From a bacterium (GTDB lineage: Bacteria; Joyebacterota; Joyebacteria; Joyebacterales; Joyebacteraceae), in assembly GCA_025774935.1 (NCBI GenBank), contig JALGZK010000015.1:1-54939 (forward strand): 54,939 bases of DNA, in the 5' to 3' direction. Position 1 is the first letter of the stretch, and every line of letters starts with the position of its first letter. Both the position numbers and the translations under genes were made by a program. The notes beneath the pieces were generated by a model. The model was not told the DNA's origin, ran no database searches, and saw only the letters and a list, made by a program, of their open reading frames with translations. Below are positions 2,980-14,322 of the stretch, in pieces.

Positions 2980-3501
2980 ATGAGAAGCGGAATCGCGTTC
3001 CTCGTTCTGATCGCGGCCTGCGCGATGCTGGTTCTGGCCGGTTGCGACGCACCGGAGGCGTCGGCCGATGCGGAGAGCACGACTGACGGAACTGAGGTCG
3101 TCCAGGCGTCCAACACCGCCGACAAGGCAGAGCAGAGTGGCTGCACCGAGGCGTGCGGCGACAAGAAGTCAGAGGAAGGGTGCATGCAGCCCATCTCCGC
3201 TACCGCCGCCGAGGGTGGCGCGGAGATGACGACCGCGGAGAACAAGGGCGGAGAATGCCCGTACGCGGAGAAGGCCGCGGCCGAGAAGGCATCGGCTGAG
3301 AAGAAGTGCGGCGGCTGTCCGGGCTCGGCGAAGCTGAAGACGAGCGCGGCGGACGCCGATGCGATGGTCGACCTCGTGTGCGGAATGACCGCGTCAGAGG
3401 ACTCCGAGTTCTCGACGCAGCACGCTGAGGCGACGTACTACTTCTGCTCCGGCGACTGCCGCGACAGCTTCGCGAGCGATCCCGGGAAGTACATCCAGTA
3501 G
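2980..3501 (+). CDS. Cys-rich lipoprotein with C-terminal YHS domain
   Basis: A 173-residue exported lipoprotein. The signal peptide ends in the lipobox LAGC, with lipidation expected at about Cys22. A low-complexity middle rich in Ala/Glu/Lys carries several cysteines (CTEAC, EGC, ECPY, CGGCPG). The C-terminal 45 residues form a YHS-type metal domain: VDLVCGM, then ATYYFCSGDCRDSFASDPGKY. Family knowledge: YHS domains accompany heavy-metal handling proteins such as copper ATPases and bind soft metals through the Cys residues. Role here is inferred as periplasmic or surface metal binding; no transporter is adjacent. It has its own promoter and a downstream hairpin, so it is monocistronic. Confidence 0.8.
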   Translation: MRSGIAFLVLIAACAMLVLAGCDAPEASADAESTTDGTEVVQASNTADKAEQSGCTEACGDKKSEEGCMQPISATAAEGGAEMTTAENKGGECPYAEKAAAEKASAEKKCGGCPGSAKLKTSAADADAMVDLVCGMTASEDSEFSTQHAEATYYFCSGDCRDSFASDPGKYIQ

Positions 3502-3857: not shown

Positions 3858-4433
3858 ATGAAGAGCTTCCTCACGCTCACGCTCGTCGGCGCGCTCGCGG
3901 TCGCCGCGCCGGCGTACGCGCAGGACGCCTCGATCTACCTCGAGCTGATGGGCGACCCCACGAGGGACGAGATCCCCGAGAACGGCGCCGCGTGGCACGA
4001 GCTCTGGCCGGAGTTCTGCGCCGTCCTCATCCAGGAGGACTACGGAGACAACGGCGACGGCGTCATCAGCGCGTGCGACTACATCATGTTCCAGCGCACG
4101 ACGTACCACGTCGAGTGGGCGGGCCCCACCTACTACATCGAGTCCGACTGCAGCGGCGAGGCCGGTTGGCTCGAACCGACGGAGCCTCCCTCCGGCGGAA
4201 GCCCCGTGTGCGAGGTGTGGCACTGGGTCTATCCCGACTTCTGCCGCGAGTCACACGTCGAGCACTGGATCGACCAGGGTGACGGCATCTTCGGGGTGGG
4301 CGACTCGGTCGAGATCGATGGCACGTGGTACGAGGTCATCGCGGTCGGAGTGAACATCACCGCGACCCCCAGCAGCCCGGTGGAGCAGGGCACGTGGAGC
4401 TCGATCAAGCACTTCTTCCGCGAGCTGTTCTAG
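3858..4433 (+). CDS. Secreted protein with two acidic calcium-loop-like repeats (paralogue 1)
   Basis: A 191-residue exported protein of a family I do not recognise. A clear signal peptide (MKSFLTLTLVGALAVAAPAYA) is followed by two related repeats. The first has WHELWPEFC, then DNGDGVISACD (a calcium EF/dockerin-like loop), then YHVEWAGPTYY. The second has WHWVYPDFC, DQGDGIFGVGD and WYEVIAVGVNIT. The protein ends in TPSSPVEQGTWSSIKHFFRE, a motif conserved in the neighbour at 4667. The ATG at 3858 is chosen because AGGAGG lies 6 bases upstream and the signal peptide begins there; the frame is open further upstream. A strong terminator follows. Function unknown; calcium binding is inferred from the loop pattern. 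Confidence 0.75.
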   Translation: MKSFLTLTLVGALAVAAPAYAQDASIYLELMGDPTRDEIPENGAAWHELWPEFCAVLIQEDYGDNGDGVISACDYIMFQRTTYHVEWAGPTYYIESDCSGEAGWLEPTEPPSGGSPVCEVWHWVYPDFCRESHVEHWIDQGDGIFGVGDSVEIDGTWYEVIAVGVNITATPSSPVEQGTWSSIKHFFRELF

Positions 4434-4475
4434 GACATCCGGAGACGGACGGCACAGGCCGTCCTCACGCCTCTG

Positions 4476-4505
4476 GCCGCCCGGCGCCCCCGCCGGGCGG
4501 CTCTT
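4476..4505 (+). terminator. Strong hairpin terminator between the paralogues
   Basis: GCCGCCCGGCG (4476-4486) and its perfect complement CGCCGGGCGGC (4491-4501) flank a CCCC loop, followed by TCTT. It separates the two paralogous secreted protein genes into separate transcripts. Confidence 0.7.
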
Positions 4506-4532
4506 CGTGAACGTTCATTCAGTCAGTCTAGG

Positions 4533-4561
4533 TTGACGTCCTCAGACGCGTGTGCTATCCT
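4533..4561 (+). promoter_or_regulatory. Sigma70-type promoter of the second secreted paralogue
   Basis: TTGACG (4533-4538), 17-base spacer, TATCCT (4556-4561). An in-frame ATG at 4550 falls inside this promoter, which argues that translation starts at 4667. Confidence 0.65.
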
Positions 4562-4666
4562 GCTCACGTCTACCTGGGGCGCCGTCGGCGCGTGGCCGTG
4601 TTCGGGTCAGGGCGCGCAGGGCGGAATCCCTTGGCAGCTCGGATGGAGCACGGAAGGGAGGGTGGC

Positions 4667-5227
4667 ATGAGAATGCGCATCGCTATGGCTGTGATCGTGA
4701 TGCTGGCCCTGACGATTCCCGCCAGTGGCCAGCTCTACCTCGAGCTCGGCGGTTCGCCCGTGAGGAACATCCCTCCGGACGGTTCGCCCTGGCATGAACT
4801 CTTCCCCAACTTCTGCGTCATCCACAACCAGGACGCCTACGGGGACAACGGCGACGGTGTCGTCAGCGTGTGCGACATGATCACGCTCGACGGCGTGCCG
4901 TACCACGTCACGTGGACGGGGCCGACGTACTACCTGTACGGCGACGCCCCGGCGTTCTACGAGCCCACCGGCGAGCATGGCGGCGACCCCGTCGGCCAGG
5001 TCTGGCACGAGGTCGCTCCGAACTTCTGCACGGAGCACCAGGTCACCGGCTGGGAAGACGCGGACGGCGACGGCGAGGTCAGCCAGTGCGACACGATCGT
5101 CTTCGAGGACGGGTCGGCGTGGCACGTCGAGGAGATTCGTCTCGACATCACGGTCACCCCGGGCAGCCCCGTCGAGCGCTCGACGTGGGGCAGGATCAAG
5201 GCTGCCGTCAGCCGCATGTTCAACTAG
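4667..5227 (+). CDS. Secreted protein with two acidic calcium-loop-like repeats (paralogue 2)
   Basis: A 186-residue paralogue of the protein encoded at 3858-4433. Signal peptide MRMRIAMAVIVMLALTIPAS-GQ, then LYLELGGSPVRNIPPDGSPW. Repeat 1 contains WHELFPNFC and DNGDGVVSVCD; repeat 2 contains WHEVAPNFC and DADGDGEVSQCD, the latter a nearly ideal EF-hand-type loop. The tail TPGSPVERSTWGRIK matches the tail of paralogue 1. The ATG at 4667 has GGGAGGGTGG directly upstream and lies downstream of the promoter. It is flanked by its own promoter and terminator. Paired cysteines per repeat would suit disulfides in an exported protein. I cannot assign a function. Confidence 0.75.
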   Translation: MRMRIAMAVIVMLALTIPASGQLYLELGGSPVRNIPPDGSPWHELFPNFCVIHNQDAYGDNGDGVVSVCDMITLDGVPYHVTWTGPTYYLYGDAPAFYEPTGEHGGDPVGQVWHEVAPNFCTEHQVTGWEDADGDGEVSQCDTIVFEDGSAWHVEEIRLDITVTPGSPVERSTWGRIKAAVSRMFN

Positions 5228-5262: not shown

Positions 5263-5300
5263 GAACCGCCCGGCGCTCACGCGTCGGGCGGTTCTTCATT
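5263..5300 (+). terminator. Hairpin terminator after the second secreted paralogue
   Basis: GAACCGCCCG (5263-5272) pairs perfectly with CGGGCGGTTC (5285-5294) around a 12-base loop, followed by TTCATT. Confidence 0.65.
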
Positions 5301-5341: not shown

Positions 5342-6628
5342 CTACTTGACGATCCTGCCCCCGATCCCCCGCCAGTCCTCCATACCGCCGTAGAACCTCT
5401 CGATCCGCAGGAACCCCTTCCTCCCCGCGACGCTGGAGGTGAGCCTGCTCCGGATGCAGTTCGACCCGTAGCAGTACGTGACGATCGGCGTCGTCGACCG
5501 GTCGATTCCGGGCCAGTGTCGCTCGAGGTAGACGTCGAGCGAGTCGGCGAAGAGCCGGGAGGTCAGGCTGACCGACCCGGGGACGTGCCCGCGCGACCAG
5601 TCGCTGTCGTGGCGGACGTCGAAGATGACGAACTCCGACGGGCGCGCGTCAGGCCGGAACCACCGGCGCGGCCCCGAGAGTCGGGCCTCGATCTCCTCTG
5701 CGGAGATGATCCTGACGACGGGGAGGCTCGTGTCGGCCAGCCACTGACGCCAGCCGTCGCGGAAGAGACGGACCTGCGCGAGGCCCGCGCGGCGAAGGAG
5801 GAAGTAGCCGACGGCGCCGTTCCCCGAGACGCCGTCGCCGTAGACGATGAACTCGTCCTGCAGGTTGACCGGACTCGTCGGCCTCGGGCCGAGCGCGGAG
5901 AAGATCTCCCGGGTCGACTCAGGGGCGCGGAGCGAGCCGTCGGCGTCCACGAACTCCGTGAAGTCGAACGGGAGGCTGTGCGGCACGTGTCCGGTCCTCG
6001 GAGGTTCGCGCCACTCCGCCTCGTCGATCATCGCCTCCCACGCGTCCCAGCCGCGGGCGTCGACGATCTCGTGCCCCTTCTCGCCGAAGTGGAGCCGCAC
6101 GTACTCCTGCGTCGCGACGAGTTCGGAACGGACGGCCGGAGTCCAGCTGGCAGGCCGCGGCTCGAGCGACTCTGTCGAGAGGACCTGCCCGCCCCCCGCC
6201 CACGCGTCGATCCCGCCCTCGAGGAGCGCGGGGTTGCCGCCGGCCGCCTCGAGGAACCAGAACAGGAGCGCGGCGTCGGCCGGAACGGGGTCCGGTCCTC
6301 CCCCGTAGCAGACGATGCGTCGTCGGCCGGAGAGTCCCAGGGCTCCGAGGACCTCTGCGGCCCGGTGCAGTTCGGGGAGTGAGGAGGCGGGAAGCGACAC
6401 GGCACCTTGGATGTGACCGGCTGCGAACGCATCGGGACCGCGCGCATCGACGACGGCTGTCCCCCGGCGGCCGAGATTGTCGGCGAGCCACGCCGCGTCG
6501 ACCGTGACGTCGGGGTATACCGGGTCGGGCGCCGGCTCCCTGTTGCCCCAGGGCCACTGCGCGCCTGCGCTCACGGCTCCCGCCGCGAGCACGAGCGCGA
6601 CGAACGCGGTTGTCAGTCGTGCCTTCAC
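5342..6628 (-). CDS. Exported triple-rhodanese (sulfurtransferase-like) protein
   Basis: A 428-residue protein with a signal peptide (MKARLTTAFVALVLAAGAVS-AGAQ) and three tandem rhodanese-homology domains at about 40-150, 170-300 and 305-425. Domain 1 has an active-site-like Cys107 in VCYGGG. Domain 2 has VYGDGVSGNG with no cysteine and is probably structural. Domain 3 has Cys386 in TYCYGSNCIRS, a full rhodanese loop. Family knowledge: rhodaneses pass sulfane sulfur from thiosulfate or persulfides to thiophilic acceptors. Export points to periplasmic sulfur handling. It is the last gene of an apparent four-gene operon with cysteine synthase and an amino-acid symporter, 33 bases after the small MetS-type gene. 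Confidence 0.82.
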   Translation of the reverse strand: MKARLTTAFVALVLAAGAVSAGAQWPWGNREPAPDPVYPDVTVDAAWLADNLGRRGTAVVDARGPDAFAAGHIQGAVSLPASSLPELHRAAEVLGALGLSGRRRIVCYGGGPDPVPADAALLFWFLEAAGGNPALLEGGIDAWAGGGQVLSTESLEPRPASWTPAVRSELVATQEYVRLHFGEKGHEIVDARGWDAWEAMIDEAEWREPPRTGHVPHSLPFDFTEFVDADGSLRAPESTREIFSALGPRPTSPVNLQDEFIVYGDGVSGNGAVGYFLLRRAGLAQVRLFRDGWRQWLADTSLPVVRIISAEEIEARLSGPRRWFRPDARPSEFVIFDVRHDSDWSRGHVPGSVSLTSRLFADSLDVYLERHWPGIDRSTTPIVTYCYGSNCIRSRLTSSVAGRKGFLRIERFYGGMEDWRGIGGRIVK

Positions 6629-9450: not shown

Positions 9451-12400
9451 CTACTTGAGGAGCACCATCTTCGCCGACGAGTCGAAGCCCTCGGCTTCCA
9501 TCCTGCAGAAGTAGACGCCGGACGCCGCCTCGACGCCGCGGTCGTCCCTGCCGTCCCAGGTCGCCTCGTGGTAGCCGGCTTCCTCCGGACCGTCGACCAG
9601 CGTCCGAACCAGCCTGCCGGTCACGTTGTAGATGCGGAGGGACACCGGTCCGTCCTTCGGAAGACCGTACGACACCTTCGTCACCGGGTTGAACGGGTTC
9701 GGCGAGACGCCGCCGAGCACGTAGCGCGAGGGCACACCGAGCTCGCCCTCGTCGATCCCGGTCTGGACCGCGCCGGTCGCGCGAACGCACCAGTCGTTCA
9801 CCACGCCGAGATCGATCCCTGCGTTGTCGCTCACCCAGAGCTCCCACTCTCCGAGACAGCTCTCTCCGACGAAGTCGCTGAGAGAACCCGGACCGTCGAC
9901 CTCGAGCTCGGACGGATACCATCCGATGATGTTCTCGGCGGTCCCGCCTGTTCTGTTGTGGAGCCGAACGGTCGTGCCCTCGGGCGAAGTGAGCTCGACG
10001 ATGAGATCGCCGATGAACGTGTGCGTGATGTTCACGTAGACCTCCACCTCGTCCATCGGGAGGTCCTCGGTGAACACCATCGTGTCGTAGACGCCTCCTG
10101 GGTTGTTATCGGGAATCGAGATCCCCGGCGATTCGCAGATCTCACTGGAGGTCTGCGGGAAGAGCGTGAAGTTCACGCCGTAGGTGATCTCTCCCTCGGC
10201 GACGGCGACAGGCGTTTCGACGCCGGTCGACCAGTCGTCCATGGTGGCCGTCACCGTGTACGAGCCGGCGTACAGAGCTTCGAGCGAGTAGTGACCCGAG
10301 GCGTCCGTGTAGGCGGATGCTCCGCCAGGGCTGGCCGTCACCAGGACCCCGCTGTGGTTCGCCTGGCCCGAGAGCGTAACGTGCCCGTCGATGCCGCCGG
10401 TCGGCGTCGACTCCGGTGTCGTCAGGTAGACGATCGCGTTCTCGAGGAGGTCCATTCGGCCCGCGGCTGCGGCCGCGTAATTGAACTGGAAGAACACAAT
10501 CTGCCCGCTCGCGGGGTCCGGGTTGTCGTCGTAGACCTGAACGCCGGAGTCGCCGGGATAGCTCGACCAGTCACACACCACGTGCGCGTCGGGCGACGGG
10601 TCGTTCGCGTCCTGATCGCCGTAGCCTGAGTACGTGAACGTGATCGGCCCGATCGTGTTCGGGAAGCTCGCGACCGCGTGCGCCGGATCCTCGACCTGGA
10701 GCGTTCCGCTCGAGTCGTGGTTCCAGCCGGTGATGTGGAGCACGATGGCTGCGAACGTCGGGTAGCCGGGGTACGAAGCCGCATCGTAGCCGACCTCACC
10801 GCCCTCGACGATGATCTTCCCGCCGGCGGTCACGAAGCTCTCGAGAGAGGTTCGGTAGGTGCTGTTCGCGACCGGGCTCGTGTTGTCGCCGCTCGCCGAC
10901 ATGATGAGGTCGTAGTCGAGCCACGTCCCAGGATCGGACGACGCCGCGCTCTCGACGACCACGTCGTATCCGAGCGCCACGATGTCGGTCTGAAGCTCCG
11001 TGACGGACTTCGGGCGGTCGGTGCCGCCGTCTGTCGCGACGTCTATGACGTTCCCGGACTTGTCGATCTTGACCGCCTCCCGCGCGCCGGTCGTGTCGTC
11101 CAGGAGGAGGATGTTCGCGAGCGTCTCCTCGAGGACGAAGTCCTCGGTCTGCGCGGGAGCGCTGACCGCGACCCCTCGCGTCTGCGGTATGTGATGCCAT
11201 GCCCGCACCTTCATCTCGTAGTTGAAGTACGGGAGCGTCGCCTCGTAGTAGCCGCCGGCGGCGGCCGAAGACGTCGTCTCGTGGTAGAGCTCCATATTGT
11301 CCGAGCGGTAGATCTTGATCGTCGCGTCGAGCGGCGTGCCCGTCCCGACTTGCGTGACGGTGCCGGACACGACGCCGGCGGGAGCGAACTCCATGAAGAA
11401 GTCGACGTCGTTCGCGCCGTACTGGATGAACACCTCCTCGAAGTACGGGAGATAGCCGAACTTCGAGACGTAGACGTCGTAGTACCCGACCTCGAGATCG
11501 CCCTCGATCTCATACAGGCCAAACGCGCCGCTCACGGTCTCGAAGAGCGGCGTCGCGCCGGTCGTGTCGGCCCCGGCGGGGTATCCCTTGATCTTCGCGT
11601 CGACGATCGGCAGCCTGCTCGCCTCGTAGACCGCACCGGCCATCTGCCCGTAGACCGTGGCGACGGTGATGTCCTCGAGGTAGATGTTGAAACCCTTCTT
11701 GCCGATCGCTGCGTTGATCGTACCCGTCTCGCTCGGCGTGACGAGAAGGTCGACGCTCGTGCCTCCGGCGACCGTGCTCGCGTCGACTCCGCAGCCCGTC
11801 GCGAACAGCGTGAAGCCGGCGGTCGACGCCTCTCCGGTGATCGTGCCTTCGTAGTGGGGCGCGAGCATGCCGTAGAGGCCGATCGCGGGGACGTTCCCCT
11901 CGATGTCGGCGCTCGCGAACGACGTTCCGCCCGTTACCGGGAGGATGTCGCTGAACGCGTCGTAGTTCGTGCCGATCTCGCGTCCGACGACCGTCAGGTC
12001 CTCCCCATACTGGGGCAGCACCGTGAAGTGGGCCTCCCCCGAGCCGTCGGTCGTGTCGACGACCGGCATGATCGACCAGCCGTCGATCGTGATCGTGACG
12101 TCCGGCTTCGGGTAGCCCTCATCGTCCCAGACCGTGACCGTCACGTCCGACGACACGCTGATCGGGACGCTCGGCGGGTCGATGTCGTAGGTCACCGGGA
12201 CGATGACCTGCGCGGCCCCCGAGTACGGCTTGAAGTTGTGCTTGCTGACCCAGACCTCCATCACCCCGACCGACATCGGAGGGGTCGAGATCGTGATGTC
12301 GGCGTGCCCGGCTGCGTCGGTGTAGGCGGTCTCGTAGAACTCGCCGTCCATGTAGATGCAGACGAGAGCGCTCTCGACGGGGTCGCGCGTGAGCGTGCCC

Positions 12401-14211
12401 ACGTCGATCGAGAACGTGCTCCCGCCCACCGGGAACGCGTCGCCGAAGGTCACGTCGAACTCTCCGTAGGGGTCGGTCCAGACGTCGAGCGCAGGGTCGC
12501 CGAACAGGTTGTACATCTCGTAGTAGCGCCTTGTGGCTCCGCCGCCGGAGTAGGCCACGTAGACGTCCCACATGCCCTGGTTCAGGAATCCTCGGGTCCA
12601 GCGGTACTCGTCGCCGAACCACGCGTCGTAGACGCCCTTCTCGAGGATGTCGTCCTCGGTCCAGTACGAGTTCGCCGAAGAGCCGTAGAACGCCATCGAA
12701 CCGTACGGTGCCAGCGTCCAGGTCTCGCCGAAGCACTCGAGCGCGAAGTCGCCGGTGATACAAGCGTACGACTGGACGAGCGGCAGCATGTCGTCGTTCG
12801 TCAGAGCATTCACCTGCGACGCGTTCATCGGCGGACCGTCCGCCCACCCGTTGGTCGAGCCGTGGCCCGAGTAGGTGAGCTGGGAGATGCCGCCGTTGAT
12901 GTCGTCGATGCACTGCTGGGTCGTCGCGTTGTACGTCACCGAGTAGCGCTTGTAGCACGTGTACCCGTCCGGAATCAGCCACGTGTTGATGACGTAGTTG
13001 TGCGTGCCCTCTGAGACGTTGTAGTTGTCCTGAGAGGCCATGAACGTGGCCTCTTTGATCCAGCCGGTCCCGCTCGAGAGCGAGTAGCGGATGTAGTCGA
13101 TGGTCTTGTTCGCGAGGTGCGTGACCTGCCCCTCGGTCTGGCATGAGAAGCGGCCGATGTAGATGTCAGGCAGCCAGTCGCCTCCTCCGTCCATCGCCGT
13201 GTAGAGAAGGTCACTGGCCGACGATGACGACACGCCGGTGAAGCTCGGGATCTGCGGGTTGTCGCCGACGAGCAGGATGAACGTCGGTGGGACGGGCCAC
13301 GTGTCGTACGCGTCCTGGATGTAGTTCTTGATGGCGGTCGTCGAGACGCCGCCCGGGATCTCCGACGTCTTCGTCACGGTGACCTCGTAGCCGAGCCTGT
13401 GACGGAGACCCGCGAGCATCTGGATCTCCTCATAGAAGCTGTCGTGCGTGATGATGAGGTAGCCGATCGGGGGCTCGAGGAGGACCCTCGAATCGAAGTC
13501 GCCCGCGTTCAGGAAGTTCTTCCGGGCGAACGTGTCGAAGTCCGTCGAGGCGTAGCGCTCGAGGACCTCGTTCGTGCGGGCCCAGTCTGCTCCGTCGAAC
13601 GTGACCTCGAGCTCGATGCTCGTGAGGAGCCTCGCGGTCCCGTCCGCCGGGCTGTACTGGATCGGGCGGACCTCGAACTGGACGAACCGGTGCGCGCGAA
13701 CGCCACCGACGTCCCCGAGGATCGCCGACTCCTCAGGCCAGTACTCGGACCCCGAGTATGCTGAGCCATGAATCACGAACTCTGCGGCCTCCAGCGCCCC
13801 CTCGATCTTCTCGATCGGAGGCTGCACCGGGAGGATCGGATGGTCGATGCCGATGTCGGCGAGCGACACATCGCTGTAGGTCGCGTTCAGGACGCGGAGC
13901 ACTGGAGTTGCACCCTGCGGGATCTCGAGGTGCTCGCGGACCACCGGCAGCATGGGCCAGCCGATGTCGGTCGTGTATGCGTGGCCGTCGAGCGTGAGCC
14001 GCGTGAAGAGGCCGAGGTCGGTCTCGACGTCCTCGGCCTGAACCCCTGGAATCTCGACGGCAATCGTCGCACCCGACGGTCCGGACGACAGGACCCTCAC
14101 CTCGACGTCACCGTACGGCTCCATCGTGCCGAAGTCGACCGGGCGCGCCGAAGCAGACAGCGCAACCAGGACGAACAGCGCGCAAATAGCCGGCAATCGC
14201 GCGTACTTCAT
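9451..14211 (-). CDS. Secreted gingipain-like (C25) cysteine peptidase with P-domain and FlgD-like sorting domain
   Basis: A 1586-residue exported multidomain protease. The order is signal peptide (1-22); propeptide; caspase-fold C25 catalytic domain with FILLVGDNPQIP (311-322), catalytic His450 in YSGHGS and Cys484 in QSYACITGDF; Ig-like C25 C-terminal domain; several carboxypeptidase-regulatory-like beta domains; a glutamine-amidotransferase-like stretch starting LLLDDT; a proprotein-convertase P-domain (about 1372-1485, FIGDLIVELTSP, GEWELWVSD); and a FlgD-like sorting domain (last 100 residues: SPNPFNP, GVYFCRMEAEG, KMVLLK). The ATG at 14211 is chosen for the signal peptide and an upstream GGAGGG; the frame stays open to 14307. 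Gingipain-type proteins are exported by type IX secretion. A promoter and a terminator frame it as a single-gene unit. Confidence 0.9.
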   Translation of the reverse strand: MKYARLPAICALFVLVALSASARPVDFGTMEPYGDVEVRVLSSGPSGATIAVEIPGVQAEDVETDLGLFTRLTLDGHAYTTDIGWPMLPVVREHLEIPQGATPVLRVLNATYSDVSLADIGIDHPILPVQPPIEKIEGALEAAEFVIHGSAYSGSEYWPEESAILGDVGGVRAHRFVQFEVRPIQYSPADGTARLLTSIELEVTFDGADWARTNEVLERYASTDFDTFARKNFLNAGDFDSRVLLEPPIGYLIITHDSFYEEIQMLAGLRHRLGYEVTVTKTSEIPGGVSTTAIKNYIQDAYDTWPVPPTFILLVGDNPQIPSFTGVSSSSASDLLYTAMDGGGDWLPDIYIGRFSCQTEGQVTHLANKTIDYIRYSLSSGTGWIKEATFMASQDNYNVSEGTHNYVINTWLIPDGYTCYKRYSVTYNATTQQCIDDINGGISQLTYSGHGSTNGWADGPPMNASQVNALTNDDMLPLVQSYACITGDFALECFGETWTLAPYGSMAFYGSSANSYWTEDDILEKGVYDAWFGDEYRWTRGFLNQGMWDVYVAYSGGGATRRYYEMYNLFGDPALDVWTDPYGEFDVTFGDAFPVGGSTFSIDVGTLTRDPVESALVCIYMDGEFYETAYTDAAGHADITISTPPMSVGVMEVWVSKHNFKPYSGAAQVIVPVTYDIDPPSVPISVSSDVTVTVWDDEGYPKPDVTITIDGWSIMPVVDTTDGSGEAHFTVLPQYGEDLTVVGREIGTNYDAFSDILPVTGGTSFASADIEGNVPAIGLYGMLAPHYEGTITGEASTAGFTLFATGCGVDASTVAGGTSVDLLVTPSETGTINAAIGKKGFNIYLEDITVATVYGQMAGAVYEASRLPIVDAKIKGYPAGADTTGATPLFETVSGAFGLYEIEGDLEVGYYDVYVSKFGYLPYFEEVFIQYGANDVDFFMEFAPAGVVSGTVTQVGTGTPLDATIKIYRSDNMELYHETTSSAAAGGYYEATLPYFNYEMKVRAWHHIPQTRGVAVSAPAQTEDFVLEETLANILLLDDTTGAREAVKIDKSGNVIDVATDGGTDRPKSVTELQTDIVALGYDVVVESAASSDPGTWLDYDLIMSASGDNTSPVANSTYRTSLESFVTAGGKIIVEGGEVGYDAASYPGYPTFAAIVLHITGWNHDSSGTLQVEDPAHAVASFPNTIGPITFTYSGYGDQDANDPSPDAHVVCDWSSYPGDSGVQVYDDNPDPASGQIVFFQFNYAAAAAGRMDLLENAIVYLTTPESTPTGGIDGHVTLSGQANHSGVLVTASPGGASAYTDASGHYSLEALYAGSYTVTATMDDWSTGVETPVAVAEGEITYGVNFTLFPQTSSEICESPGISIPDNNPGGVYDTMVFTEDLPMDEVEVYVNITHTFIGDLIVELTSPEGTTVRLHNRTGGTAENIIGWYPSELEVDGPGSLSDFVGESCLGEWELWVSDNAGIDLGVVNDWCVRATGAVQTGIDEGELGVPSRYVLGGVSPNPFNPVTKVSYGLPKDGPVSLRIYNVTGRLVRTLVDGPEEAGYHEATWDGRDDRGVEAASGVYFCRMEAEGFDSSAKMVLLK

Positions 14212-14322
14212 CCAGTCCCTCCTTCGCTGGAGGGGGGCGTACCTGTCCCCCCCCGCGGGTGGTGTGTAACAGCCCTCGTTCGCGCAAGCGTACAAGTAGC
14301 GGGGCATGCGCCTCGCACATAA

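Follow-up and report, generated by a model that had tools for sequence, protein, structure and literature searches.

Bacteria use C-terminal sorting tags, among them LPXTG, PEP-CTERM and the T9SS C-terminal domain (CTD), to determine which proteins are displayed outside the cell. The PEP-CTERM motif is often adjoined by Ser-Thr-Trp. The T9SS occurs in several FCB phyla (PMC11285876). Its CTDs are about 70–100 residues long, and reviews distinguish types A, B and C, type A being an Ig-like domain (PMC10202324).

The two tandem genes described here encode exported proteins that end in a tail of about 20 residues with the core TWGxIK (TWSSIK in gene 1). Like a T9SS CTD, this tail is C-terminal, is found on Sec-exported proteins, occurs in the same genomes and serves as an alternative ending of homologous protein bodies. 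Unlike the CTDs of type A (TIGR04183/PF18962), B and C, it is short and matches no CTD model. It may work in the manner of T9SS CTDs, of PEP-, MYXO- and GlyGly-CTERM tags or of sortase signals, and is a member of none of these families. That it is a sorting or targeting tag of some kind is, on the sequence evidence set out below, very probable.

Two exported paralogues with a duplicated WHE repeat

The genes lie near the start of the window, meaning the whole analysed stretch of 54,939 nucleotides. The features of the region are as follows.

3858–4433 (+): gene 1, exported two-repeat WHE protein, 191 aa, N-terminal signal peptide; a relative with 85% identity was found
3966–4193 (+): gene 1 repeat 1 (alignment), acidic loop at 4044–4079
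4194–4379 (+): gene 1 repeat 2 (alignment), degenerate acidic loop IDQGDGIFGVGD at 4269–4304
4374–4430 (+): gene 1 C-terminal tag SPVEQGTWSSIKHFFRELF, core TWSSIK at 4392–4409
4533–4561 (+): promoter-like site upstream of gene 2, consensus match only
4667–5227 (+): gene 2, exported two-repeat WHE protein, 186 aa, N-terminal signal peptide; AlphaFold2 model
4766–4978 (+): gene 2 repeat 1 (alignment; single-repeat AlphaFold2 model), acidic loop at 4841–4876
4979–5170 (+): gene 2 repeat 2 (alignment), acidic loop DADGDGEVSQCD at 5057–5092
5165–5224 (+): gene 2 C-terminal tag SPVERSTWGRIKAAVSRMFN, core TWGRIK at 5183–5200; low-confidence predicted helix at residues 173–185
5274–5290 (+): terminator-like hairpin downstream of gene 2, consensus match only
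5342–6628 (−): convergent gene, exported protein with three rhodanese domains (Pfam Rhodanese E=3e-36 over three stretches; synteny)

Both open reading frames were verified and start with ATG, and the two proteins are about 46% identical. Each consists of a Sec-type signal peptide, two repeats of the form WHE-x2-P-x-FC...GDG...CD, and the tail. The initial annotation had described two secreted paralogues at 3858–5227, built from a duplicated repeat with a calcium-type acidic loop and belonging to no described family, and these points have stood. The range is exact, both signal peptides are present, and each protein contains two copies of the repeat that can be aligned. The residues W, H, C, D, D, G, C, D and H show a conservation of at least 90% across 40 repeat copies drawn from relatives, and one Pro is invariant. 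The loop can be recognised in every repeat, in degenerate form in the second repeat of gene 1, and that of gene 2 repeat 2 is compatible with an EF-type calcium loop; that the WHE repeat contains a calcium-binding loop is, going by these residues, somewhat favoured. The annotation had also listed a conserved tail as a feature of the pair; it is present in both proteins, but it is not particular to them, as the motif occurs genome-wide.

Searches of Pfam, NCBIfam, PADLOC and the PDB sequences gave no significant family match for the WHE repeat, and when the models (entire protein and single repeat) were compared with the PDB by Foldseek, no similar fold was found. The lack of a PADLOC match also led us to reject a role as defence proteins. 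Dockerins and EF-hand proteins, which had been proposed as a counter-test, share with the WHE proteins a duplicated repeat (in the case of dockerin type I) and a DxDxDG-type acidic loop of, by sequence, the 12 residues known from EF-hands. In a five-repeat relative, Dockerin_1 and EF-hand_5 are matched at E=0.0038 and E=0.0051, both sub-threshold, and dockerin chains appear in the PDB sequence search at E>0.05. Against this, nothing rises above any cut-off, and the similarity is limited to the loop, whereas the conserved WHE, FC, CD and YH positions lie outside it. AlphaFold2 moreover predicts the two-repeat body of the gene 2 protein to be all-beta (mean pLDDT 84), as it does the first repeat of gene 2 on its own (pLDDT 87). 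The models have neither the two F-hand helix-loop motifs of dockerin type I nor the helices that flank an EF-hand loop. We therefore reject membership in either family and consider it very improbable that the pair are simply calcium proteins of the dockerin or EF-hand type.

Separate promoter and terminator signals had been taken as a sign that the two versions are expressed independently. This is borne out around gene 2, which is preceded by a sigma-70-like site (one match, against 0.1 in shuffles) and followed by a terminator-like site (one match, against 0.5 in shuffles), but the consensus scan found no such sites for gene 1. Independent expression of the two genes is thus weakly suggested.

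Distribution of the WHE family and its rhodanese neighbour

Two further WHE paralogues are found in the same genome, on contigs C18 and C21, and of the 20 genomes from its phylum, 19 have the family, including all 13 of good quality. Together with the residue conservation, this shows that the pair is not due to chance. A first sample of 41 genomes from other families contained no member, and two members outside the phylum (in G153 and G213) came to light among the loci fetched for their tails. The MAGs in which relatives occur are labelled Ca. Effluviviaceae, Eisenbacteria, Gemmatimonadetes or simply 'bacterium', which makes Ca. Effluviviacota the probable phylum of the window. In one genome a protein of 487 aa has five repeats (L053:1605-3068, contig G008:C428), so the WHE repeat can be regarded as a module. 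This protein has an extra Cys before every WHE and a TWG-type tail, DSSWGRIKSEFR, and its gene also adjoins a rhodanese gene.

Gene 2 and the triple-rhodanese gene are arranged tail to tail. In phylum genomes that contain the family, one WHE copy is nearly always convergent with a triple-rhodanese homologue at a distance of ∼80–340 bp, and the same pair occurs in the DeMMO4_6 MAG (L043) and in G213; in G153 a triple-rhodanese neighbour of the WHE gene was not found. The conserved convergence suggests a functional link between the WHE family and the exported triple-rhodanese protein. Whether this link would extend to the sulfur chemistry of rhodaneses is doubtful from gene order and sequence, and sulfur transfer via the conserved Cys residues is speculation. 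Another exported protein, at 2980–3501 (+) of the window, is Cys-rich and lipoprotein-like, and its C-terminus resembles YHS, with a match (E=1e-6) that narrowly misses the Pfam cut-off; a homologue adjoins WHE genes in G002.

A C-terminal tail on unrelated exported proteins

The tails of both window proteins matched other open reading frames by themselves. The consensus is roughly [ST]-P-V-E-x-[ST]-T-W-G-x-I-K-x-[LF]-[YF]-R-stop, and ∼50 exported proteins of this genome close with such a TWGxIKxLYR-type tail, a number that is a lower bound based on pattern searches and fetched stretches. Searched at the DNA level, T-W-[GSR]-x-I-K has 45 matches in the genome, compared to one for the reversed control pattern. 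In the fetched stretches, 47 of 48 matches to T-W-[GSRAN]-x-[IVL]-K lie 4–8 residues ahead of a stop codon, 41 of them at exactly four residues, as in SPVEDATWGTIKALYR-stop. The ending in the WHE family is longer (IKxFFxxLF). A slightly wider pattern gave 49 full-length tagged proteins, all 49 with a hydrophobic N-terminus and a Sec-type signal peptide. With both ends removed, the remaining bodies fall into 26 unrelated clusters.

Some of the tagged genes are tandem duplicates, and 10 of the body clusters have more than one member, which could point to a chance motif or to a DNA repeat that has spread through the genome. The 45 core matches, however, represent 42 different DNA strings in which Thr and Gly codons are mixed, so that conservation is at the peptide level. 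The count of 45 to 1 and the placement at the C-terminus likewise led us to reject such an origin, to which the unrelated bodies and the recurrence of the tail in other families leave next to no probability. Across all loci, 166 distinct tails were collected, most of whose four-residue endings are [ASG]-L-[YF]-R. As T/S, W, G/S/A, I/V/L/M and K were conditions of the search for this set, independent evidence of conservation comes from the flanks and endings only.

Homologous bodies with the tail or with a T9SS CTD

Several of the tagged bodies belong to NCBIfam families, namely choice-of-anchor V, X and J, MXAN_6652, and the rhombosortase- and myxosortase-dependent M36 families. The family names record C-terminal anchors that vary by lineage, and here the TWG tail occupies the place of the anchor. 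One tagged beta-helix protein has homologues in the same genome (E down to 1e-55), some closing with a TWG tail and others with a T9SS type-A/FlgD-like domain; the TIGR04183 cut-off was reached by three of the five such CTDs that were scanned and missed by the other two. On contig C27 the two kinds are neighbours, a TWG-tailed copy at 85454–86611 adjoining a CTD-ended copy that starts at 86818. The window proteins themselves gave no match to TIGR04183 or PF18962, and none is listed for the 49 tagged proteins either. This swap of tail and CTD suggests that the tail acts at the step at which the CTD acts.

An FN3-like domain often precedes a CTD, and in other families TWGSIKAMFR-stop and comparable endings occur on small exported proteins of FN3-like type. 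In L242 and L245 (genomes G233 and G092) the gene for the single TWG-tailed FN3-like protein immediately follows a patatin-POTRA-Omp85 fusion gene. The window also contains, at 9451–14307 (−), the gene for a 1618-aa gingipain-type C25 peptidase with carboxypeptidase-regulatory, P-proprotein and FlgD/T9SS-type C-terminal domains, likely a CTD-type T9SS substrate.

The tail across genomes and its association with SprA

A survey of 290 genomes was used to follow the tail, genomes being called enriched with at least 5 pattern matches and at most 1 control match. All 20 phylum genomes carry the pattern, with 3–45 matches and 0–1 in the control. Outside the phylum, nine genomes from eight families are enriched (G058, G117, G122, G139, G153, G213, G226, G258 and G276), and most of the matches checked in these lie 1–9 residues before a stop. 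Tail endings are lineage-specific and include LYR, TVF, ADF and RLYK among others. G116 has 5 matches and a control of 2. In G283, with 5 raw matches, no match ends a long open reading frame; the matches look like chance, and it was dropped as a tagged genome.

Individual genomes show further arrangements of the tail. In G139, six matches lie on one strand within 7 kb (C20:5375-12394), and inspection of some of these showed TWG-type C-terminal endings, for example TWGMIKSDF and TWGAIKAGN. In G058 (L143, L148, L153, L164) KLATTWGxIK-type tails follow an ALSEEEV-like motif, in proteins that we take to be reminiscent of Poribacteria LamG proteins.

SprA, the translocon of the T9SS, is encoded in all nine tag-rich genomes outside the phylum, compared to 75 of 261 other non-phylum genomes (p=2e-5). 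It is also found in 16 of 16 tag-positive genomes tested and in none of 14 control genomes. For tag-poor genomes, 20 matches each were inspected from those with and those without SprA; C-terminal placement (counted where the frame is open for at least 48 codons upstream) was seen for 11 matches in the first set and for 1 in the second (p=0.001). Because thresholds were set post hoc, the inspected matches are not a random sample and the genomes are related, these p-values are indicative only. The tail is so far almost confined to SprA-encoding genomes, an association that is correlative only, and the majority of SprA-encoding genomes are not tag-rich. The one SprA-negative genome with a C-terminal match, G121, belongs to the same genus as the tag-rich, SprA-encoding G258. 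G258 has 18 pattern matches; in G121 a single tag looks genuine, and there are 34 matches to TIGR04183 but none to SprA at 1e-15.

How the tail might work

The presence of the tail on ∼50 mostly unrelated exported proteins, and its recurrence in other bacterial groups, make it probably an address label for the cell surface. PEP-CTERM, MYXO-CTERM and GlyGly-CTERM are likewise short C-terminal tags on many unrelated exported proteins, with some body families in common, but they carry a transmembrane helix and a basic end. The last 40 residues of the 49 tagged proteins contain no transmembrane helix, the highest 17-residue hydropathy being 1.51 and none exceeding 1.6. Exosortase is present in 8 of 16 tag-positive genomes and hence not generally required; on these grounds the tail is not a PEP-CTERM/exosortase signal. 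Substrates of sortase also carry a C-terminal tag on exported proteins. The TWG-tailed proteins, in contrast, have no LPXTG motif, and sortase was found in 0 of 17 genomes searched, so identity with this system was rejected too.

The tail might still be a sorting or processing tag for a dedicated receptor or transpeptidase that works independently of the T9SS, by analogy with exosortase, rhombosortase or myxosortase. Tens of tagged proteins per genome would fit an enzyme with many substrates, and some of the body families bear tags of such types elsewhere. The lack of a transmembrane helix near the end and the enzyme survey, which covered sortase and exosortase, speak against it, and we regard it as unlikely. 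A further possibility is that the tail has no part in export and serves afterwards to dock the protein on a surface receptor, a membrane or a scaffold, or to hold it there as a short amphipathic anchor. The Trp and basic residues of the tail would suit this, as would the C-terminal helix that AlphaFold2 predicts with low confidence. The helical moment of the tail is 0.49, compared to 0.36 for shuffled sequences, but it is nearly the same at the beta angle (0.47) and so weakly informative. With the swap between tail and T9SS CTD on homologous bodies also counting against it, a docking role seems quite unlikely.

Delivery by the T9SS is the reading that we prefer. The window proteins would be passengers of a short C-terminal sorting tag that cross the inner membrane by Sec. 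The T9SS, or a receptor linked to it, would then recognise the tail in the periplasm and deliver the cargo across the outer membrane to the cell surface or the medium; the tail would be a minimal substitute for a CTD of some 75 residues. The WHE repeat would be one cargo module among others, a small extracytoplasmic beta-repeat that is probably calcium-stabilised, and the WHE protein would perhaps act together with the adjoining exported triple-rhodanese protein. Against the T9SS, the tail shares neither size nor sequence with known CTDs, and in G121 a genuine-looking tag goes with no SprA match at the cut-off. For the reading as a whole, sorting tag and T9SS mechanism together, we put the probability at about 0.5, and the chances that T9SS/SprA is the machinery behind the tail appear evenly balanced. 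More tentatively, at slightly worse than even odds, TWGxIK would form a further class of minimal T9SS signal, ∼20 residues long and without a folded CTD, that exists in parallel to type-A CTDs in many T9SS lineages.

Implications

The motif strings of the tail were not found in the open-access literature, a paper on Effluviviacota makes no mention of C-terminal sorting or anchoring, and among curated models none for the tail came up. Provisionally, then, and with respect to the open-access literature, the tail is undescribed. The WHE repeat with its conserved triple-rhodanese neighbour is a smaller lead, on extracytoplasmic chemistry in seep bacteria.

The tail is a compact tag free of any membrane helix, carried by dozens of exported proteins per genome, and would give a predicted destination for hundreds of uncharacterised proteins. 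At least eight families outside the candidate phylum have it as well, and it could be written as a simple profile. It also bears on the question of which part of the C-terminal signal is read in the T9SS, and whether a folded CTD is needed. If the tail is indeed a minimal T9SS signal, the translocon or an adaptor would read a linear C-terminal peptide.
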